Source: Deltaproteobacteria bacterium (lineage in GTDB: Bacteria; Desulfobacterota; Desulfobulbia; Desulfobulbales; BM004). Taken from it: a stretch of DNA of 7,407 nucleotides. Both the position numbers and the translations under genes were made by a program. The DNA lies in NCBI GenBank assembly GCA_020346205.1, contig CP070776.1:812173-819579 (forward strand), given 5' to 3'. Under the pieces are notes generated by a model, which made no database searches, had not been told where the DNA came from, and saw nothing but the letters and a program-made list of their open reading frames with translations. This document shows positions 2,216 through 7,407 of this stretch, piece by piece. Each line of letters begins with the position of its first letter. Position 1 is the stretch's first letter.

Positions 2216-4543
2216 ATGAGTTCGACAAAGGCAATAGAAGACTGTTTGACCTTTCTGGGGAGCCTTATCCAGTCGCCTCTTGATCTCCTGCCACACCAGG
2301 ATTTTGCAGAAAAACTCATATATCTTGAGCTGCAGGGGCCCCCTGATGGTCTGCCCAATAAGGTAACTGCCGCATTGGATGACCTGGCTTCCTCGCTGTC
2401 TCAGTTTGATGTAAAAAACACCAAGGTAGTTGTCCTTGGGGGAGGCACCGGCCTCTCAAATATTATTGGCGGTGACAGTAGACTGCAAAGCTGGCCAGAG
2501 GAGCCTTTCCGCGGCCTGAAGGATATTTTTCCGCAAACAAAAGCTATCGTCTGTGTAACAGATGATGGGGGTTCCACCGGGGAGCTGTTAAAAGACTTGC
2601 CTCTCATAGCCCTGGGTGACCTTCGTCATGTCCTGCTCTCATCAATAAGGAAAAAAAGCCTTCAGGATAAATACGGGTTAGATGAAACCCAATGTTTGCA
2701 GGTATCCAGGGTTCTGCATGAACTGTTTAATTACCGTTTTGACAGTCACCCTGGATCAATGGAAAAGATCAGCGCTGAAACTGGCTTTGACGCTGCATTG
2801 CTCCCCGGTCCTATGCACGATTACCTCGCCGGACTTCTGGAAATGCTTTTCACTGATCCGGGTCTGGAAAAATTGTTATCCAGACCGCATTGCCTTGGGA
2901 ATCTTCTCCTGGCAGCAGCTATTTGGCAGGAAGCTGATGAATCAATCCATAAAGATCATAAAACCGAATCCTGCCATATGCCTTATACCAATGCTTACCA
3001 GGGACTGAAGCAATTGTGCAGGGCTATGGCACTGGCTGAAGATGCTGTTATGCCCTGTTCAATTACCCCTGCAGGGCTGCAGGTTTTATACAGTAACGGG
3101 ACCCTGGTTTCAGGTGAGTATAAATCAAGCCATGCCCGTAGAGGGTATCCAGTGGATCGCCTGTTTGTAAGCTTTGTGGAGGAACCAAAATTACCGGACG
3201 GGTTGCTCAATACCTTGAAAACAGCTGATGTCATTATCCTGGCACCCGGCAGCCTCTATACAAGCACAATACCTATCTTTCAGGTTCCAGGACTGGCTGA
3301 AGCTGTGTGCAGTAATGAAAAAGCGCTGAAGATCCTTGTTTCGAACCTTTGGGTCCAGAAAGGCGAAACCGATGTTGTGCGTGAAGATCCTAAAAGACGT
3401 TTTTATGTATCTGACCTCATAAAGGCATACCACCGTAACATTCCTGGAGGAGTCAGGGGGCTTTTCAGCCATGTACTGTCATTGGGACTGCAGGATATTT
3501 CCGGTTCCATCCTACAGAATTATGCCATGGAAGACAAAGTCCCGATTTTCCTGGACAGGGAAAAAATAGGGGCCCTGGGATTCAAGTCCATCGAGGCTGG
3601 TATTTTCTCTCAAGCCGCGCTCCGGGAACGCAACGTTATACAGCATGATCCAGGAATGCTTGCCCGGGCAACCCGTACCCTGGTTGCATCAATGTCGCTG
3701 CAGCTGCAGAACCAGGATAGCAGTAAAGAAATATCTGAGAATCTGCCTGGCAGCTTCAGCATGAAACAGGCCCTGGTGCAAAAAGACAACCTGTATCCCT
3801 GCAAAAGGTACACAGCACTGCAGAAATGGCTGGATGAGGTCAGTATCAGGCAAGAAACCGGTAGTGAAGATATATCCGGGAGATTGCTGAATATTCTCTG
3901 GTTCCACCAGGATATTCTTTTGGGCCATATGTCCAATATTAAGGCTATAGAGGTAATAGACCGGGCAACGTGGTCGCGCAGCCAGGAATGGGACAATGTG
4001 TACTCATTTTACGACCCGGTGGACAGCACAATAAAGATCTGCCAGGATGTTGTGACAGAAAAGAAACGCCTTGAGCAGGCTTTTCTGGTGGCCCTGGGGC
4101 AGGCCCTTTTGGGCAATTATGCCGCTGCTAAAGAAATGGAAGCCGTCAAACAGGACGGAGAAGCTGTTGGAAAGATGTTCAGGCTTACTGTCAGGCAACC
4201 TGCAGACAGAAATACGTTTTTTTCCGACCAGGAATTGTCCCAGTATTTAAAGCTGGCCAGGATGAAAAGATCTGAGTCTAACACACTACTGTACACAAGA
4301 CTGGTTAACGGAAATGAAGGTTTTACCCCACCAGGACTGCTTTTTGGGCTTATTTATGCCTGGTACCTGGATAATCGCTTAGCAGAGCACGTGGAGTATA
4401 AAATGGCGGTAATGCGCACTGATATATCTGACCTCATACCTGAGCAGGTGAGAGTGCATGCAAGAAGAAGGGCCCTTGTGGAATTCTTCCGCCGTTCAGT
4501 TTTTTGCCATTCCTCACAAATGTATGATGAAATACCTGTATAA
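2216..4543 (+). CDS. CofD/YvcK-family protein (gluconeogenesis-factor-like) with long extra C-terminal region
   Basis: The core belongs to the CofD/YvcK family. KVVVLGGGTGLSNIIGG (residues 70-86) is the nucleotide-binding loop, followed by CVTDDGGSTGELL (113-125), ALGDLRHVL (132-140), ILAPGSLYTSTIP (341-353) and NLWVQKGETD (377-386). CofD transfers a lactyl phosphate to make F420. YvcK relatives bind UDP-sugars and are needed for growth on gluconeogenic carbon sources and for cell shape. Those relatives are roughly 300-450 residues long, whereas this one has 775: about 68 residues precede the core and about 285 follow it (490-775). I recognise no domain in the tail; it looks soluble, mixed-charge and largely helical, and has no clear membrane segment. 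No F420 biosynthesis gene is visible, so a YvcK-like regulatory role is more likely than CofD activity, as inference. The ATG at 2216 has only a weak AGAAG (2203-2207) ahead. It lies 38 bases after mdh, probably in the same operon. Confidence 0.85.
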   Translation: MSSTKAIEDCLTFLGSLIQSPLDLLPHQDFAEKLIYLELQGPPDGLPNKVTAALDDLASSLSQFDVKNTKVVVLGGGTGLSNIIGGDSRLQSWPEEPFRGLKDIFPQTKAIVCVTDDGGSTGELLKDLPLIALGDLRHVLLSSIRKKSLQDKYGLDETQCLQVSRVLHELFNYRFDSHPGSMEKISAETGFDAALLPGPMHDYLAGLLEMLFTDPGLEKLLSRPHCLGNLLLAAAIWQEADESIHKDHKTESCHMPYTNAYQGLKQLCRAMALAEDAVMPCSITPAGLQVLYSNGTLVSGEYKSSHARRGYPVDRLFVSFVEEPKLPDGLLNTLKTADVIILAPGSLYTSTIPIFQVPGLAEAVCSNEKALKILVSNLWVQKGETDVVREDPKRRFYVSDLIKAYHRNIPGGVRGLFSHVLSLGLQDISGSILQNYAMEDKVPIFLDREKIGALGFKSIEAGIFSQAALRERNVIQHDPGMLARATRTLVASMSLQLQNQDSSKEISENLPGSFSMKQALVQKDNLYPCKRYTALQKWLDEVSIRQETGSEDISGRLLNILWFHQDILLGHMSNIKAIEVIDRATWSRSQEWDNVYSFYDPVDSTIKICQDVVTEKKRLEQAFLVALGQALLGNYAAAKEMEAVKQDGEAVGKMFRLTVRQPADRNTFFSDQELSQYLKLARMKRSESNTLLYTRLVNGNEGFTPPGLLFGLIYAWYLDNRLAEHVEYKMAVMRTDISDLIPEQVRVHARRRALVEFFRRSVFCHSSQMYDEIPV

Positions 4544-4552
4544 TCATACAGG
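4535..4552 (+). terminator. hairpin over the end of the CofD-like gene, weak terminator candidate
   Basis: CCTGTAT (4535-4541) pairs perfectly with ATACAGG (4546-4552) across a four-base AATC loop, and the stop codon TAA (4541-4543) lies within it. The following bases (CTCATAATTTCATTATTTC) are T-rich but do not form an uninterrupted T tract, so intrinsic termination is only possible. CTGTATAAT in its left arm also occurs in the regulatory repeat at 4912-4920. Confidence 0.35.
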
Positions 4553-4734
4553 CTCATAATTTCATTATTTCACTATTCCCAAAAAAAAATCCTCAATTAA
4601 GCAATTCTCAAGCAATATCCGATTTTTCATTGTTTTTGATTTTTCAATAAGAAAGTTTAGGGGACAGTGAAAACTAAATCAGGTCTTCTTAATATTTCTT
4701 ATCAATTTAATAGGCAGGTGACGTGTTTTAATGC

Positions 4735-4751
4735 ATTTATACTGTATAAAT
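4735..4751. promoter_or_regulatory. palindromic site 1 (perfect dyad)
   Basis: ATTTATAC-T-GTATAAAT is a perfect 8-1-8 inverted repeat and the most symmetrical member of the array. It has TATAC in place of the TAGAC arm used by most later copies. Confidence 0.7.
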
Positions 4752-4767
4752 AAAAATGGGCATAAAT

Positions 4768-4784
4768 TTATATACAGTATAAAT
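4768..4784. promoter_or_regulatory. palindromic site 2
   Basis: TTATATAC-A-GTATAAAT, whose core TATACAGTATA is a perfect dyad. It is centred 33 bases (about three helical turns) after site 1 and has the opposite central base, so the two sites also form an inverted pair. Confidence 0.65.
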
Positions 4785-4904
4785 AGAAGCAAATGGCGTT
4801 TAATGGTATTAGGTTCATTCCAAACGGCATTACCATGGGCTATTAGTATCTATTTCATAGTTAATATTAAACTTATTGTAAGAAATTAAAGAAACACAAT
4901 GTTT

Positions 4905-4921
4905 AGTTGAACTGTATAATT
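4905..4921. promoter_or_regulatory. palindromic site 3 (half-site strong on the right)
   Basis: AGTTGAAC-T-GTATAATT. The right arm fits the consensus and the left arm is degenerate. AACTGTATAAT (4910-4920) forms a 10-of-11 inverted repeat with ATTAGACAGTT at 4929-4939, across an eight-base spacer. Confidence 0.55.
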
Positions 4922-4927
4922 ATTTGT

Positions 4928-4944
4928 AATTAGACAGTTAAATG
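4928..4944. promoter_or_regulatory. palindromic site 4 (half-site strong on the left)
   Basis: AATTAGAC-A-GTTAAATG. The left arm TTAGAC fits the consensus. Its centre is 23 bases after site 3, the closest pair in the array. Confidence 0.55.
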
Positions 4945-4959
4945 GGCCATGAAAAAAAT

Positions 4960-4976
4960 ATTTAGACTGTATAAAA
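4960..4976. promoter_or_regulatory. palindromic site 5, just upstream of promoter P1
   Basis: ATTTAGAC-T-GTATAAAA is a full consensus copy. It ends six bases before the TTGACA hexamer of the candidate promoter P1, a position where a bound regulator could contact polymerase. Confidence 0.7.
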
Positions 4977-4982
4977 AAAAGC

Positions 4983-5011
4983 TTGACATGTGGTTTTTAG
5001 TATTGTACTGT
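4983..5011 (+). promoter_or_regulatory. candidate promoter P1 for the cyclase operon
   Basis: A perfect TTGACA (4983-4988) is followed after 17 bases by TACTGT (5006-5011), which matches only three of six -10 positions. Site 6 of the array overlaps this -10 element. A perfect -35 with a poor -10 is typical of a promoter that needs or is blocked by a regulator. Transcripts would start near 5018 and carry an untranslated leader of about 110 bases. Confidence 0.45.
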
Positions 5012-5017
5012 CTAGGC
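5001..5017. promoter_or_regulatory. palindromic site 6, overlapping the P1 -10 element
   Basis: TATTGTAC-T-GTCTAGGC is the weakest copy: it keeps the ACTGT centre and a GTCTA right arm (TAGAC read on the other strand). Binding here would cover the -10 of P1, suggesting repression. Confidence 0.5.
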
Positions 5018-5036
5018 GAAGTAAAAATTACGGTCT

Positions 5037-5053
5037 ATTTAGACAGTATAAAA
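5037..5053. promoter_or_regulatory. palindromic site 7, overlapping the P2 -35 element
   Basis: ATTTAGAC-A-GTATAAAA differs from site 5 only at the central base. It contains the TAGACA hexamer of candidate promoter P2, so occupancy would compete with polymerase or place the protein directly over the promoter. Confidence 0.7.
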
Positions 5054-5069
5054 AGTAATAAATTATAAT
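5040..5069 (+). promoter_or_regulatory. candidate promoter P2 for the cyclase operon
   Basis: TAGACA (5040-5045, five of six) and a perfect TATAAT (5064-5069) are separated by 18 bases. Transcription would begin near 5076, giving a leader of about 55 bases before the ATG at 5131. The -35 is embedded in palindromic site 7, and site 8 lies just downstream of the expected start. This is the better of the two promoters by total consensus match. Confidence 0.5.
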
Positions 5070-5082
5070 TACTTTGGCATCT

Positions 5083-5099
5083 AAATAGACAGTAAGCTT
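5083..5099. promoter_or_regulatory. palindromic site 8, closest to the gene
   Basis: AAATAGAC-A-GTAAGCTT. The left arm TAGAC and the centre fit the consensus; the right arm does not. It lies about 32 bases before the cyclase start codon, within the leader of either candidate transcript. Confidence 0.5.
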
Positions 5100-5130
5100 A
5101 AAAGGCATCTTAATCGTAAGAGGTCATGTT

Positions 5131-6723
5131 ATGGCAGATAGCAACTTAATTACAAGTAAAGATATAATCGAAAAAACAGGCATTTCAAGAGCAACCTTGA
5201 ATAATTACATCAAGCTTGGAATTCTTCCTAAACCTATTGTAAGGCGTCCAGGTCCTGAAGAGAAGGGAGCTAAACAGATAGGTTACTTTCCCTCTGATGT
5301 TTTGGAACGTATATTAAAGGTTAAGCTTTTAAAACAGCAGGGCAACTCAATGGAAGATATTGCCCAGATATTTCAGGACATAATGGGTGATGGTTCTGAG
5401 GAGTACGTTAAAGAAGATACTGAGAAGGAAGAAATTCGTCCATCTACTGAAAAAGTCCCTGCTACCAAGGCTGTACGCAGGATTTCAGACAGTGATTTGC
5501 ATGTCACAATTACAGATATCAGCTCTCCAGCATACTTGATCAATCACAATTTTGAGATTGAATGGGTGAATAAAGCTGCTGAGGAGCAAATATTTAACCA
5601 GAACGTGCGTACTATCATTAATGTTGAATCCAGGAATATTTTTAAATTGCTCCTTCGTGATGAACTGAAAAGCAATTTTAAGAACTGGATGGAATCAGTT
5701 GCAATGCACCTCACAGTATTGCAAAACCGGATTACTGCGAGCAAATTACGCAGGATCTACCACGGTATAAGCGACAAAGAGATAGACCTCCTTACTGAAC
5801 TATATGAACAGCGCAATGTCGCTAGCCCCGAAAGCCTTTATCATCTTCCTGCAACAATAGTAAAAGCTGATGATACCAGGTCGTCGTATTGGGTGCATAC
5901 AATGTCCTTCAGGGAAGGCACTTTTTTCGTGTATGTGCCTACTGACAGCATCAATACGGAATTGCTTGATATGCTTTCACAGCGCGGCAAGATCATCAAT
6001 GAGCTTCTGAAAAATAGAATGCCATCCCTGGTGTCGCTCTGTGTGTTGGTTGCTGACCTCCAGGATTCTGTCAAGATCAGTGCCGAGCTCCTCCCTGCAC
6101 AGTATTTTGAGCTGATTAATGAATTATGGCAGGCGGTCGGGCCGACCTTTGAAAAGTACAAAGGTATCTACGGTAAGCATGCCGGTGATGGAATGCTCTA
6201 TTATTTCATCCATAAACCCGGCGTAAATTACTTAATGAATGCTGTTAACTGTGCCCTTGAAATACGCGAAGTTATGAAAGAATTGAGTAGTAAGTGGAGA
6301 CTGCGCAAGGGTTGGAATAACGAACTTTTCCTGAACACAGGAATAAACGAGGGGCAGGAGTTTTTTGGAACCATACAGTCGTCAAATACCATCGAATTTA
6401 CAGCTTTAGGCGACACAATCAACATTGCAGGAAGACTTTCTGATTTGGCAGAAGATGGTGAGATTTGGACAACAAAAAACCTTATTAGCCGTCTTACCCA
6501 GGAAGAAAGAAAACTGATACGCTTTGGTGTCCACCACGATAACCAGACCGGTAAAATATTCATCCGTAATTCTTTCGCCCGTATCTGCGATATCATCCAG
6601 AAGAATAATTTGCATGATCGCCACTTATCATCGATTGCAGGACTTCCGATTACGGAAATTAAAGAAAAGGTAAGTCAAAACATTGAGTTACAGGATATTG
6701 GATCCCTTAAATCCACCGACTAA
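5131..6723 (+). CDS. MerR-like HTH / PAS-like / class III adenylate cyclase fusion protein
   Basis: 530 residues in three parts. Residues 6-83 resemble a MerR DNA-binding domain: TSKDIIEKTGISRATLNNYI (8-27), then LGILPKP, then YFPSDVLERI and LLKQQGNSMEDIAQIF. An acidic linker (88-118) follows. Residues 125-272 look PAS-like, with PAYLINHNFEIEWVNKAAEE (133-152) as the best-matching segment. Residues 300-490 are a class III nucleotide cyclase. All six expected catalytic positions are present: metal Asp309 and Asp353, adenine-binding Lys349 and Thr424, and transition-state Asn431 and Arg435. A Lys/Thr pair is typical of class IIIb adenylate cyclases, several of which respond to bicarbonate. Predicted reaction: ATP to cAMP and pyrophosphate. 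There is no membrane segment, so it is probably cytosolic and DNA-associated. ATG 5131 follows AAGAGG at 5118-5123; another ATG at 5126 is out of frame. It follows the palindrome array and is probably autoregulated. Confidence 0.88.
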   Translation: MADSNLITSKDIIEKTGISRATLNNYIKLGILPKPIVRRPGPEEKGAKQIGYFPSDVLERILKVKLLKQQGNSMEDIAQIFQDIMGDGSEEYVKEDTEKEEIRPSTEKVPATKAVRRISDSDLHVTITDISSPAYLINHNFEIEWVNKAAEEQIFNQNVRTIINVESRNIFKLLLRDELKSNFKNWMESVAMHLTVLQNRITASKLRRIYHGISDKEIDLLTELYEQRNVASPESLYHLPATIVKADDTRSSYWVHTMSFREGTFFVYVPTDSINTELLDMLSQRGKIINELLKNRMPSLVSLCVLVADLQDSVKISAELLPAQYFELINELWQAVGPTFEKYKGIYGKHAGDGMLYYFIHKPGVNYLMNAVNCALEIREVMKELSSKWRLRKGWNNELFLNTGINEGQEFFGTIQSSNTIEFTALGDTINIAGRLSDLAEDGEIWTTKNLISRLTQEERKLIRFGVHHDNQTGKIFIRNSFARICDIIQKNNLHDRHLSSIAGLPITEIKEKVSQNIELQDIGSLKSTD

Positions 6724-6738
6724 AAGGACTAACCACTA

Positions 6739-7407
6739 ATGAGAACAGCCATAATTCAACAATTGGGGAATCAACCAGTGGAAAATAAAATATCACAAGA
6801 TGAACTGTTCAGACGTGTAGAGCAGCTGGAAAGGGAGAGAGCTCAATACAAGCTTGATTCCCAGGAAACGCTGCGCAGGTGTGAATCAAAGTATCTTGCC
6901 ATGCTGGAATCGGTTGACGCTTATATGACCCTCGTTGACAGAAATCTTCATATTCTGTGGGCCAACCAGAAGGCGAAAAACATTTTTGGCTGGGATATTG
7001 TTGGAAAGTCCTGTTGTGAGGCCCTTTATGGCAAAAAAGAGATGTGCGGCAGTAATTCATCCTCCTGTCTGACACGGCAGGCTTTCAGCAGCACCAGGCC
7101 AATTAAGTGTCATTCCCTAAAATTGAAGGTGAAGGACGGTGACCTTAAATATTTTGAGGGAACTGCCAAGGTGGTATCCAGGGATAATGACGGCAAACCT
7201 TCGGTAGTGGTCAAGATTTATAAGGATATTACTGAACGCAAGCAGGCTGAAGAGGAACTGCGCAACAATATGAAGCAGATGCGAAGTAATCTGGATGGAA
7301 CTATCAAGGCAATAGCCAGAACTGTTGAAACCAGAGACGCATATACCGCCGGTCATCAGCGGCGAACCACTGAAATAGCCAGGGCAGTAGCATTTGAAAT
7401 GGGCCTC
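6739..7407 (+). CDS. PAS / HD-GYP protein, N-terminal part (probable cyclic-di-GMP phosphodiesterase, cut by right edge)
   Basis: 223 codons are visible and the frame is still open at the edge. Residues 16-52 are charged and probably helical or coiled-coil. Residues 52-166 form a PAS domain: YMTLVDRNLHILWANQKAKN (62-81) and NIFGWDIVGKS are typical, and it ends with VKIYKDITERKQAEEEL (158-174), the usual PAS/PAC exit. It contains clustered cysteines (92, 93, 103, 110, 124), as in PAS domains with a C-x(n)-C-x(n)-C pattern that may bind metal or sense redox state. Residues 185-223 match the start of HD-GYP domains: TIKAIARTVETRDAYTAGHQ and RRTTEIARAVAFEMGL. The HD and GYP motifs lie outside the window, so activity cannot be judged. 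HD-GYP enzymes usually hydrolyse c-di-GMP. The ATG at 6739 follows AAGGA (6724-6728), 15 bases after the cyclase stop, indicating co-transcription. Confidence 0.85.
   Translation, partial: MRTAIIQQLGNQPVENKISQDELFRRVEQLERERAQYKLDSQETLRRCESKYLAMLESVDAYMTLVDRNLHILWANQKAKNIFGWDIVGKSCCEALYGKKEMCGSNSSSCLTRQAFSSTRPIKCHSLKLKVKDGDLKYFEGTAKVVSRDNDGKPSVVVKIYKDITERKQAEEELRNNMKQMRSNLDGTIKAIARTVETRDAYTAGHQRRTTEIARAVAFEMGL

Follow-up and report, generated by a model that had tools for sequence, protein, structure and literature searches.

The stretch of DNA analysed here, hereafter the window (7407 bp), carries three genes on its forward strand, followed by a gap of 587 bp and by a gene (5131..6723, +) for a 530-aa protein that joins a MerR-type HTH (residues 8-82), a PAS-like middle part and a class III cyclase domain (residues 302-459). 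Two of the upstream genes are presumably KdsB-like and Mdh-like, judging from their sequence, and the third, which borders the gap, was assigned to the CofD family by domain analysis. A gene for a PAS domain protein (6739..7407, +) starts 15 bp after the cyclase gene and is cut by the end of the window. The MerR HTH family PF13411 matches the 530-aa protein at 23.8 bits (curated cut-off 21.6), with a MerR HTH match in 69 of 72 relatives at an E-value of 0.1, and the cyclase family PF00211 matches it at 36.8 bits (cut-off 21.9). The class III cyclases share a pair of aspartates for the metal, a lysine and a threonine that read the base, and an asparagine and an arginine; D309, D353, K349, T424, N431 and R435 of the window protein are each matched by the identical residue in the alignment with CyaC. 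By domain and catalytic residues, it is a predicted class III nucleotide cyclase. Its middle region matches PAS_4 at E-values of 0.03-0.09, below the Pfam cut-off. Within residues 125-290, PF17765, a MmyB-like ligand-binding domain, was matched in 12 of the 72 relatives (best 6.3e-5), which hints at a small ligand; a B12-binding domain is not among the 11 Pfam families matched by the window protein at an E-value of 0.1. The structure predicted from 72 sequences has a pLDDT of 85.7, an earlier prediction from 29 sequences having been poor (pLDDT 57), and the structural comparison covered mostly the cyclase part, the HTH and PAS folds receiving no confirmation from it. Among 8000 candidates scored, 2359 proteins fall into the DNA-binding cyclase family at an E-value of 0.001, some of them with a partial match; a search for viral relatives confirmed none.

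The gap between the CofD-family gene and the cyclase gene harbours eight 17-bp sites within 4735-5099, to which no strand is assigned and which are variants of one operator, TTAKAC-W-GTMTAA. A sequence-only reading of this DNA had described eight near-palindromes here, and all of them were recovered. Sites 1 and 2 form a distal pair, 33 bp apart from centre to centre: site 1 (4735..4751), ATTTATACTGTATAAAT, is indeed the perfect 8-1-8 dyad that had been claimed (8/8, 23 bits), and site 2 (4768..4784) has a dyad of 6/8 and 21 bits. They are followed by site 3 (4905..4921; 5/8, 20 bits), site 4 (4928..4944; 5/8, 14 bits), site 5 (4960..4976; 6/8, 23 bits) and, further downstream, site 7 (5037..5053; 6/8, 23 bits), sites 5 and 7 being the two copies correctly said to be identical save for the central base. 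The two weakest dyads, site 6 (5001..5017; 3/8, the weakest of all) and site 8 (5083..5099; 4/8), score about 10 bits against 14-23 bits for the remaining six. Counterparts of site 6 occupy the equivalent position in L001, L002, L004 and L013, and a site near -40, as site 8, is also present in these four loci (9-16 bits). The 17-mer, with up to three mismatches, gives eight strand-matches at four places, where shuffles average 0.07 and reach 2 at most. Six 17-mers centred on ACWGT with a dyad of at least 5/8 fall within 4544-5130, where 1000 shuffles average 0.23 and never exceed 3, and another three are found in the remainder of the window. By both measures the array clearly surpasses chance. 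The assertion that the motif is found nowhere in the flanking genes holds at a threshold of at least 13 bits save for one match of 13.7 bits near 2724, within the gene at 2216-4543.

A -35 hexamer, TTGACA (4983..4988, +), lies between sites 5 and 6, the centre of site 5 being 15 bp upstream of its start. It is followed after 17 bp by the candidate -10 TACTGT (5006-5011), which is contained in site 6 and agrees with TATAAT at 3 of 6 positions only; an alternative -10 gives a spacer of 15 bp, and the candidate -10 of the window is weak. A second candidate promoter (TAGACA at 5040, TATAAT ending at 5069) starts in site 7. The overlaps proposed from the sequence are borne out, that of one copy with a -10 by site 6 and that of another with the -35 of a different promoter by site 7. 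In classical MerR activators, the operator is located in a lengthened promoter spacer of 19-20 bp. A scan with a general promoter consensus returned three promoter-like matches versus 4.4 in shuffles, that is, no excess. The site-bearing stretch has no open reading frame of at least 70 aa. An RNA element gained no support, no Rfam match in the window reaching the gathering score.

The conservation of the sites was evaluated upstream of orthologues. Homologues were collected, aligned and sought in genomes, which yielded 278 relatives, of which the best 80 were kept; these loci were partly selected by the recognition-helix peptide, with a pattern that favoured RATLNNYI, and come from Desulfobacterota, Betaproteobacteria and others. 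Together with the window they make 81 records, and removal of one without an N-terminus and of three with fewer than 100 bases upstream left 77 usable loci. When 11-mers were counted without any prior motif, TAGACAGTATA came out on top, in 20 of the 77 loci against 3 at most in three shuffles, which ranks this motif first. With a palindromic 19-column matrix, 72 of the 77 loci show at least one site scoring 10 bits or more, against 3-6 loci in three sets of shuffled upstreams; the sites total 203, and 59 loci have two or more. As the matrix was trained on the same upstream regions, the flanks provide a fairer control: at a threshold of at least 13 bits, the upstream regions of 80 records contain 167 sites (4.5 per kb) and 813,190 bases of flanks contain 18 (0.022 per kb). 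Kinship was controlled for with 38 representatives at 60% identity (two clustered proteins being fragments of 2-3 residues), of which, at a threshold of at least 7 bits, 37 have a site and 35 have two or more. The arrays span 1 to 9 sites among orthologues; the high number seen in the window is particular to its clade, and many relatives have one to three sites. Neighbouring genes vary among the loci and the sites stay with the cyclase gene; a direct follower on the same strand from the protein cluster of the downstream PAS gene is found in 11 of the 77 loci.

The half-sites are arranged in two inverted forms. TAKAC and GTMTA with a gap of 1 bp occur 71 times against 0.31 expected from the flanks, and with a gap of 4 bp nine times against 0.09 expected, while fewer than four direct TAKAC repeats with an 11-bp period (gap 6) are seen in the 77 upstreams. 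Of the five loci that lack the main form, four show the 4-bp gap by eye, exactly in L060 and L061 and with one mismatch in L058 and L072. Half-sites with a 4-bp gap are seen upstream of L042, L046, L050, L060, L061, L068, L075 and L077, and the records of these loci are mostly titled Betaproteobacteria or Burkholderiales.

Occurrence away from the cyclase gene was assessed in the genomes of relatives, on which all genome-wide statements rest. Of 15 orthologue-bearing genomes, 9 contain the exact 13-mer TTAKACWGTMTAA, at 21 places altogether, of which 17 are at the regulator's own gene, and the reversed pattern occurs 8 times. With one mismatch allowed, seven genomes give totals, own sites included, that fall short of the reversed-pattern control in five cases (11/19, 11/17, 5/9, 9/22 and 14/23) and slightly exceed it in two (11/9 and 4/3). 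Among 96 genomes of one order, ten carry the regulator family, one of them as a fragment; the exact 13-mer is present in 4 of these 10 (13 places, counting one in miaB and four from an overlapping G071 contig end) versus 2 of the 86 genomes without it (3 places), and the reversed pattern totals 41 in this set by our own count. Six of the ten regulator genomes have no exact 13-mer, which indicates that the sites are often imperfect. Away copies lie within coding sequence in a transport-like gene of G009 and in miaB of G004 (names by eye). The exact 13-mer is present three times in G004, each time away from the cyclase gene of this genome, and one of these copies lies between two open reading frames. 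In the order set, with G090 left out, away copies lie in miaB in G089, and between divergent open reading frames and at the end of one in G099. At centre 1507 of L085, a 23-bit site precedes by 38 bp an open reading frame of G004 that is MarR-like by eye; at centre 1507 of L098 and L099, the exact 13-mer falls in miaB at about codon 66-67, in two genomes. The miaB copies are probably due to chance arising from conserved protein sequence. A wider regulon was rejected, exact and one-mismatch scans outside the own gene giving no excess over the reversed-pattern control, and the best reading of this is a control largely confined to the protein's own promoter; single imperfect sites at other genes could nevertheless exist. 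Orthologous loci lacking the palindromes and an equal frequency of the motif elsewhere, both raised by the sequence-only reading as grounds for doubt, did not occur, the former in view of the 72 of 77 loci that have them, the latter in the relatives' genomes scanned.

The fifth locus without the main form, L036, has the helix RDTLINYI, the other loci of the 80 having RATLNNYI, and a lone TAGAC half-site at -83 is located upstream of its gene. Given that the collecting pattern favoured RATLNNYI, an independent sample was drawn by protein similarity from 395 genomes of the phylum. A match was present in 24, of which eight weak ones were left out and two were already represented; of fifteen loci, five were already represented, leaving ten new loci from nine genomes, two of which (L112 and L113) are close kin. 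Sites of at least 10 bits are present in 8 of the 10. L111, with the helix RVTLHNYI, has none, nor has L115, a second family member in one genome (G236) with an unchanged helix, and L118 keeps its sites with a single change (RSTLNNYI). The altered helix coincides with operator absence in L036 and L111, at residues 21 and 24, and these residues may read the site, a link that rests on two changed helices. A sample of the Betaproteobacterial class gave matches in 2 of 274 genomes, the query's own among them, and no further helix comparison was obtained; the class of G260, searched with the changed-helix protein of G260, returned only that protein (1 of 17). Sites are also kept by L112 and L113 (about 280 aa), which consist of the HTH and the middle part with no cyclase, by L116 (163 aa), which has an HTH of the same kind and no cyclase, and by two more short relatives with such an HTH, L117 and L118, in which the cyclase seems diverged by eye. 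As relatives with no cyclase or a diverged one retain the sites, the operator seems to go with the HTH and not with the cyclase.

We propose that the palindromes are operators of the encoded protein and are used for autoregulation, with a probability of about 0.85, binding being deduced from comparative data. The conserved cluster at its own gene, combined with the rarity of the motif elsewhere, suggests that the protein most likely controls its own production. In a protein dimer, each MerR-type head would occupy one of the inverted half-sites TAKAC/GTMTA, dimerisation presumably being supplied by the cyclase and PAS-like parts, and dimers on neighbouring sites may bind cooperatively along one face of the DNA. 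Exact TTGACA is present in 64 of the 77 upstreams, with 72 copies where 20 single-base shuffles average 8.4. In 34 of these 64 loci, the centre of a site scoring 12 bits or more lies 13-16 bp upstream of the hexamer, against 1.9% for a random position. The nearest downstream centre lies 18-21 bp from TTGACA in 26 cases, 26 bp in 5, 39-42 bp in 8 and elsewhere in 5. As one site lies immediately before the -35 and another covers the spacer or the -10, occupancy would control the protein's own promoter. An upstream site that is fixed relative to the -35 and a downstream site that varies would suit polymerase contact upstream and blocking downstream. The net sign is probably repression rather than activation; the strictly placed upstream site would also be compatible with activation at low occupancy.

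The spacing of the sites bears on cooperativity. Pairs 32-34 bp apart number 27, ten of them with no TTGACA between, whereas 1000 rounds of jitter by up to 8 bp give 8 and at most 17; the typical spacing of 33 bp corresponds to about three helical turns. The distances between the sites of a pair show phasing with a period of about 10.5 bp (Rayleigh 0.53; maximum of the jitter null 0.33). Kinship inflates these geometry figures; the 33-bp and 14-15 bp peaks persist among the 60% representatives. Cooperative binding, which the sequence-only reading had suggested, gains support from the recurring 33-bp spacing. A second peak is found at 13 bp (21 neighbours with a 7-bit threshold, 7 pairs with one of 12 bits); 24 neighbouring pairs are 13-14 bp apart, for example in L069 and L076, and this peak fits no model here. 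Everted half-sites with 2 bp between them were seen in 13 loci.

The distal pair, with its sites 33 or 23 bp apart, is also present in L013, L001, L002 and L097. The order of a distal pair, about 160 bp and a pair near -195/-160 is common to the window (33, 160 and 32 bp), L013 (33, 158 and 34), L001 (23, 160 and 32), L002 (33, 159 and 32) and G071 (23, 162 and 33), the last taken from a contig end that is almost identical to L004, though not entirely so. In the window and L013, an additional site near -220 lies between the distal pair and the -195 site. The stretch between the distal pair and the proximal sites is 32-51% identical to that of the window in L013, L001, L002 and L004. It can tentatively be suggested, at slightly under even odds, that the distal pair of the window's clade joins the proximal group by looping. 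The pair might instead serve a separate promoter or a small RNA, a role that would be compatible with autoregulation and is in keeping with its position about 160 bp from site 4. Against this, five loci preserve a separation of 158-162 bp between the pair and the site near -195 despite the low identity of the sequence between, and we consider this role rather unlikely.

A further reading takes the array chiefly as an assembly platform, on which dimers gathered on the DNA would alter cyclase activity, transcription control being secondary. The sites of the window's clade do outnumber the needs of repression and are nearly confined to one place, their helical phasing (Rayleigh 0.53 at 10.5 bp) is in agreement with such an assembly and the cyclase has its catalytic residues, but sites are retained in L112, L113 and L116, which have no cyclase, and in L117 and L118, where it is diverged by eye, and they are positioned relative to the -35; this reading appears improbable. 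It would be equally improbable that the array is the sole chromosomal landing place, the occupancy of which pairs cyclase domains and couples second-messenger output and expression, the number and phase of occupied sites setting both. It is very improbable that another cellular regulator binds the palindromes and the cyclase is a mere target gene, as might be argued from binding by the encoded protein being putative and from L115, which has the standard helix yet no site, since the array tracks the cyclase gene across several phyla and changing neighbourhoods, the loci with helix changes at residues 21 and 24 have no array, and a motif at background outside the array would leave such a regulator with hardly any other target.

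Returning to autoregulation, no other target was detected, and the DNA-binding part therefore seems mainly to set the amount of cyclase. A fusion of transcription factor and enzyme whose sole detectable target is itself is unusual. A previously uncharacterised family of DNA-binding cyclases thereby gains a concrete candidate operator and a testable function, and arrays of 1 to 9 sites with recurring phases constitute a natural series for studies of cooperativity and looping.

The mycobacterial protein Rv0386 also joins a cyclase and a DNA-binding domain in one chain, and differs from the window protein in that its HTH is of the LuxR type and lies at the opposite end. The class III adenylate cyclases CyaB, CyaC and Cya2 have, to our knowledge, neither a MerR head nor such an operator array. 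CarH has a MerR-type head. In the titles and opening lines of abstracts among the papers listed for MerR-cyclase and HTH-cyclase combinations, no account of the fusion or of the operator was found, and the excerpt of PMC2447327 has no HTH wording. According to the excerpted account of CarH, its half-site repeat is TnnACA, in tandem 11-bp direct repeats nnnnTnnACAn, and the dimers of Cystobacter CarH bind cooperatively (PMC9304148). The array described here resembles that of CarH/CarA (LitR) in its half-site TAKACA, which fits TnnACA, in the repeated sites covering the -35 and in the proposed cooperative dimers (PMC9304148). It differs in that its half-sites are inverted with a gap of 1 bp (or 4 bp) instead of being direct 11-bp repeats, and the tail of the protein is a cyclase where CarH uses B12. 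BldC, in the part of its description consulted, likewise has a MerR-like head and forms cooperative multimers on binding sites of varying length, but it consists of 68 residues with no effector domain, binds head-to-tail on direct repeats and governs a regulon (PMC5859096). Both CarH and BldC illustrate, as far as these excerpts go, the ability of MerR-type heads to line up cooperatively on DNA.
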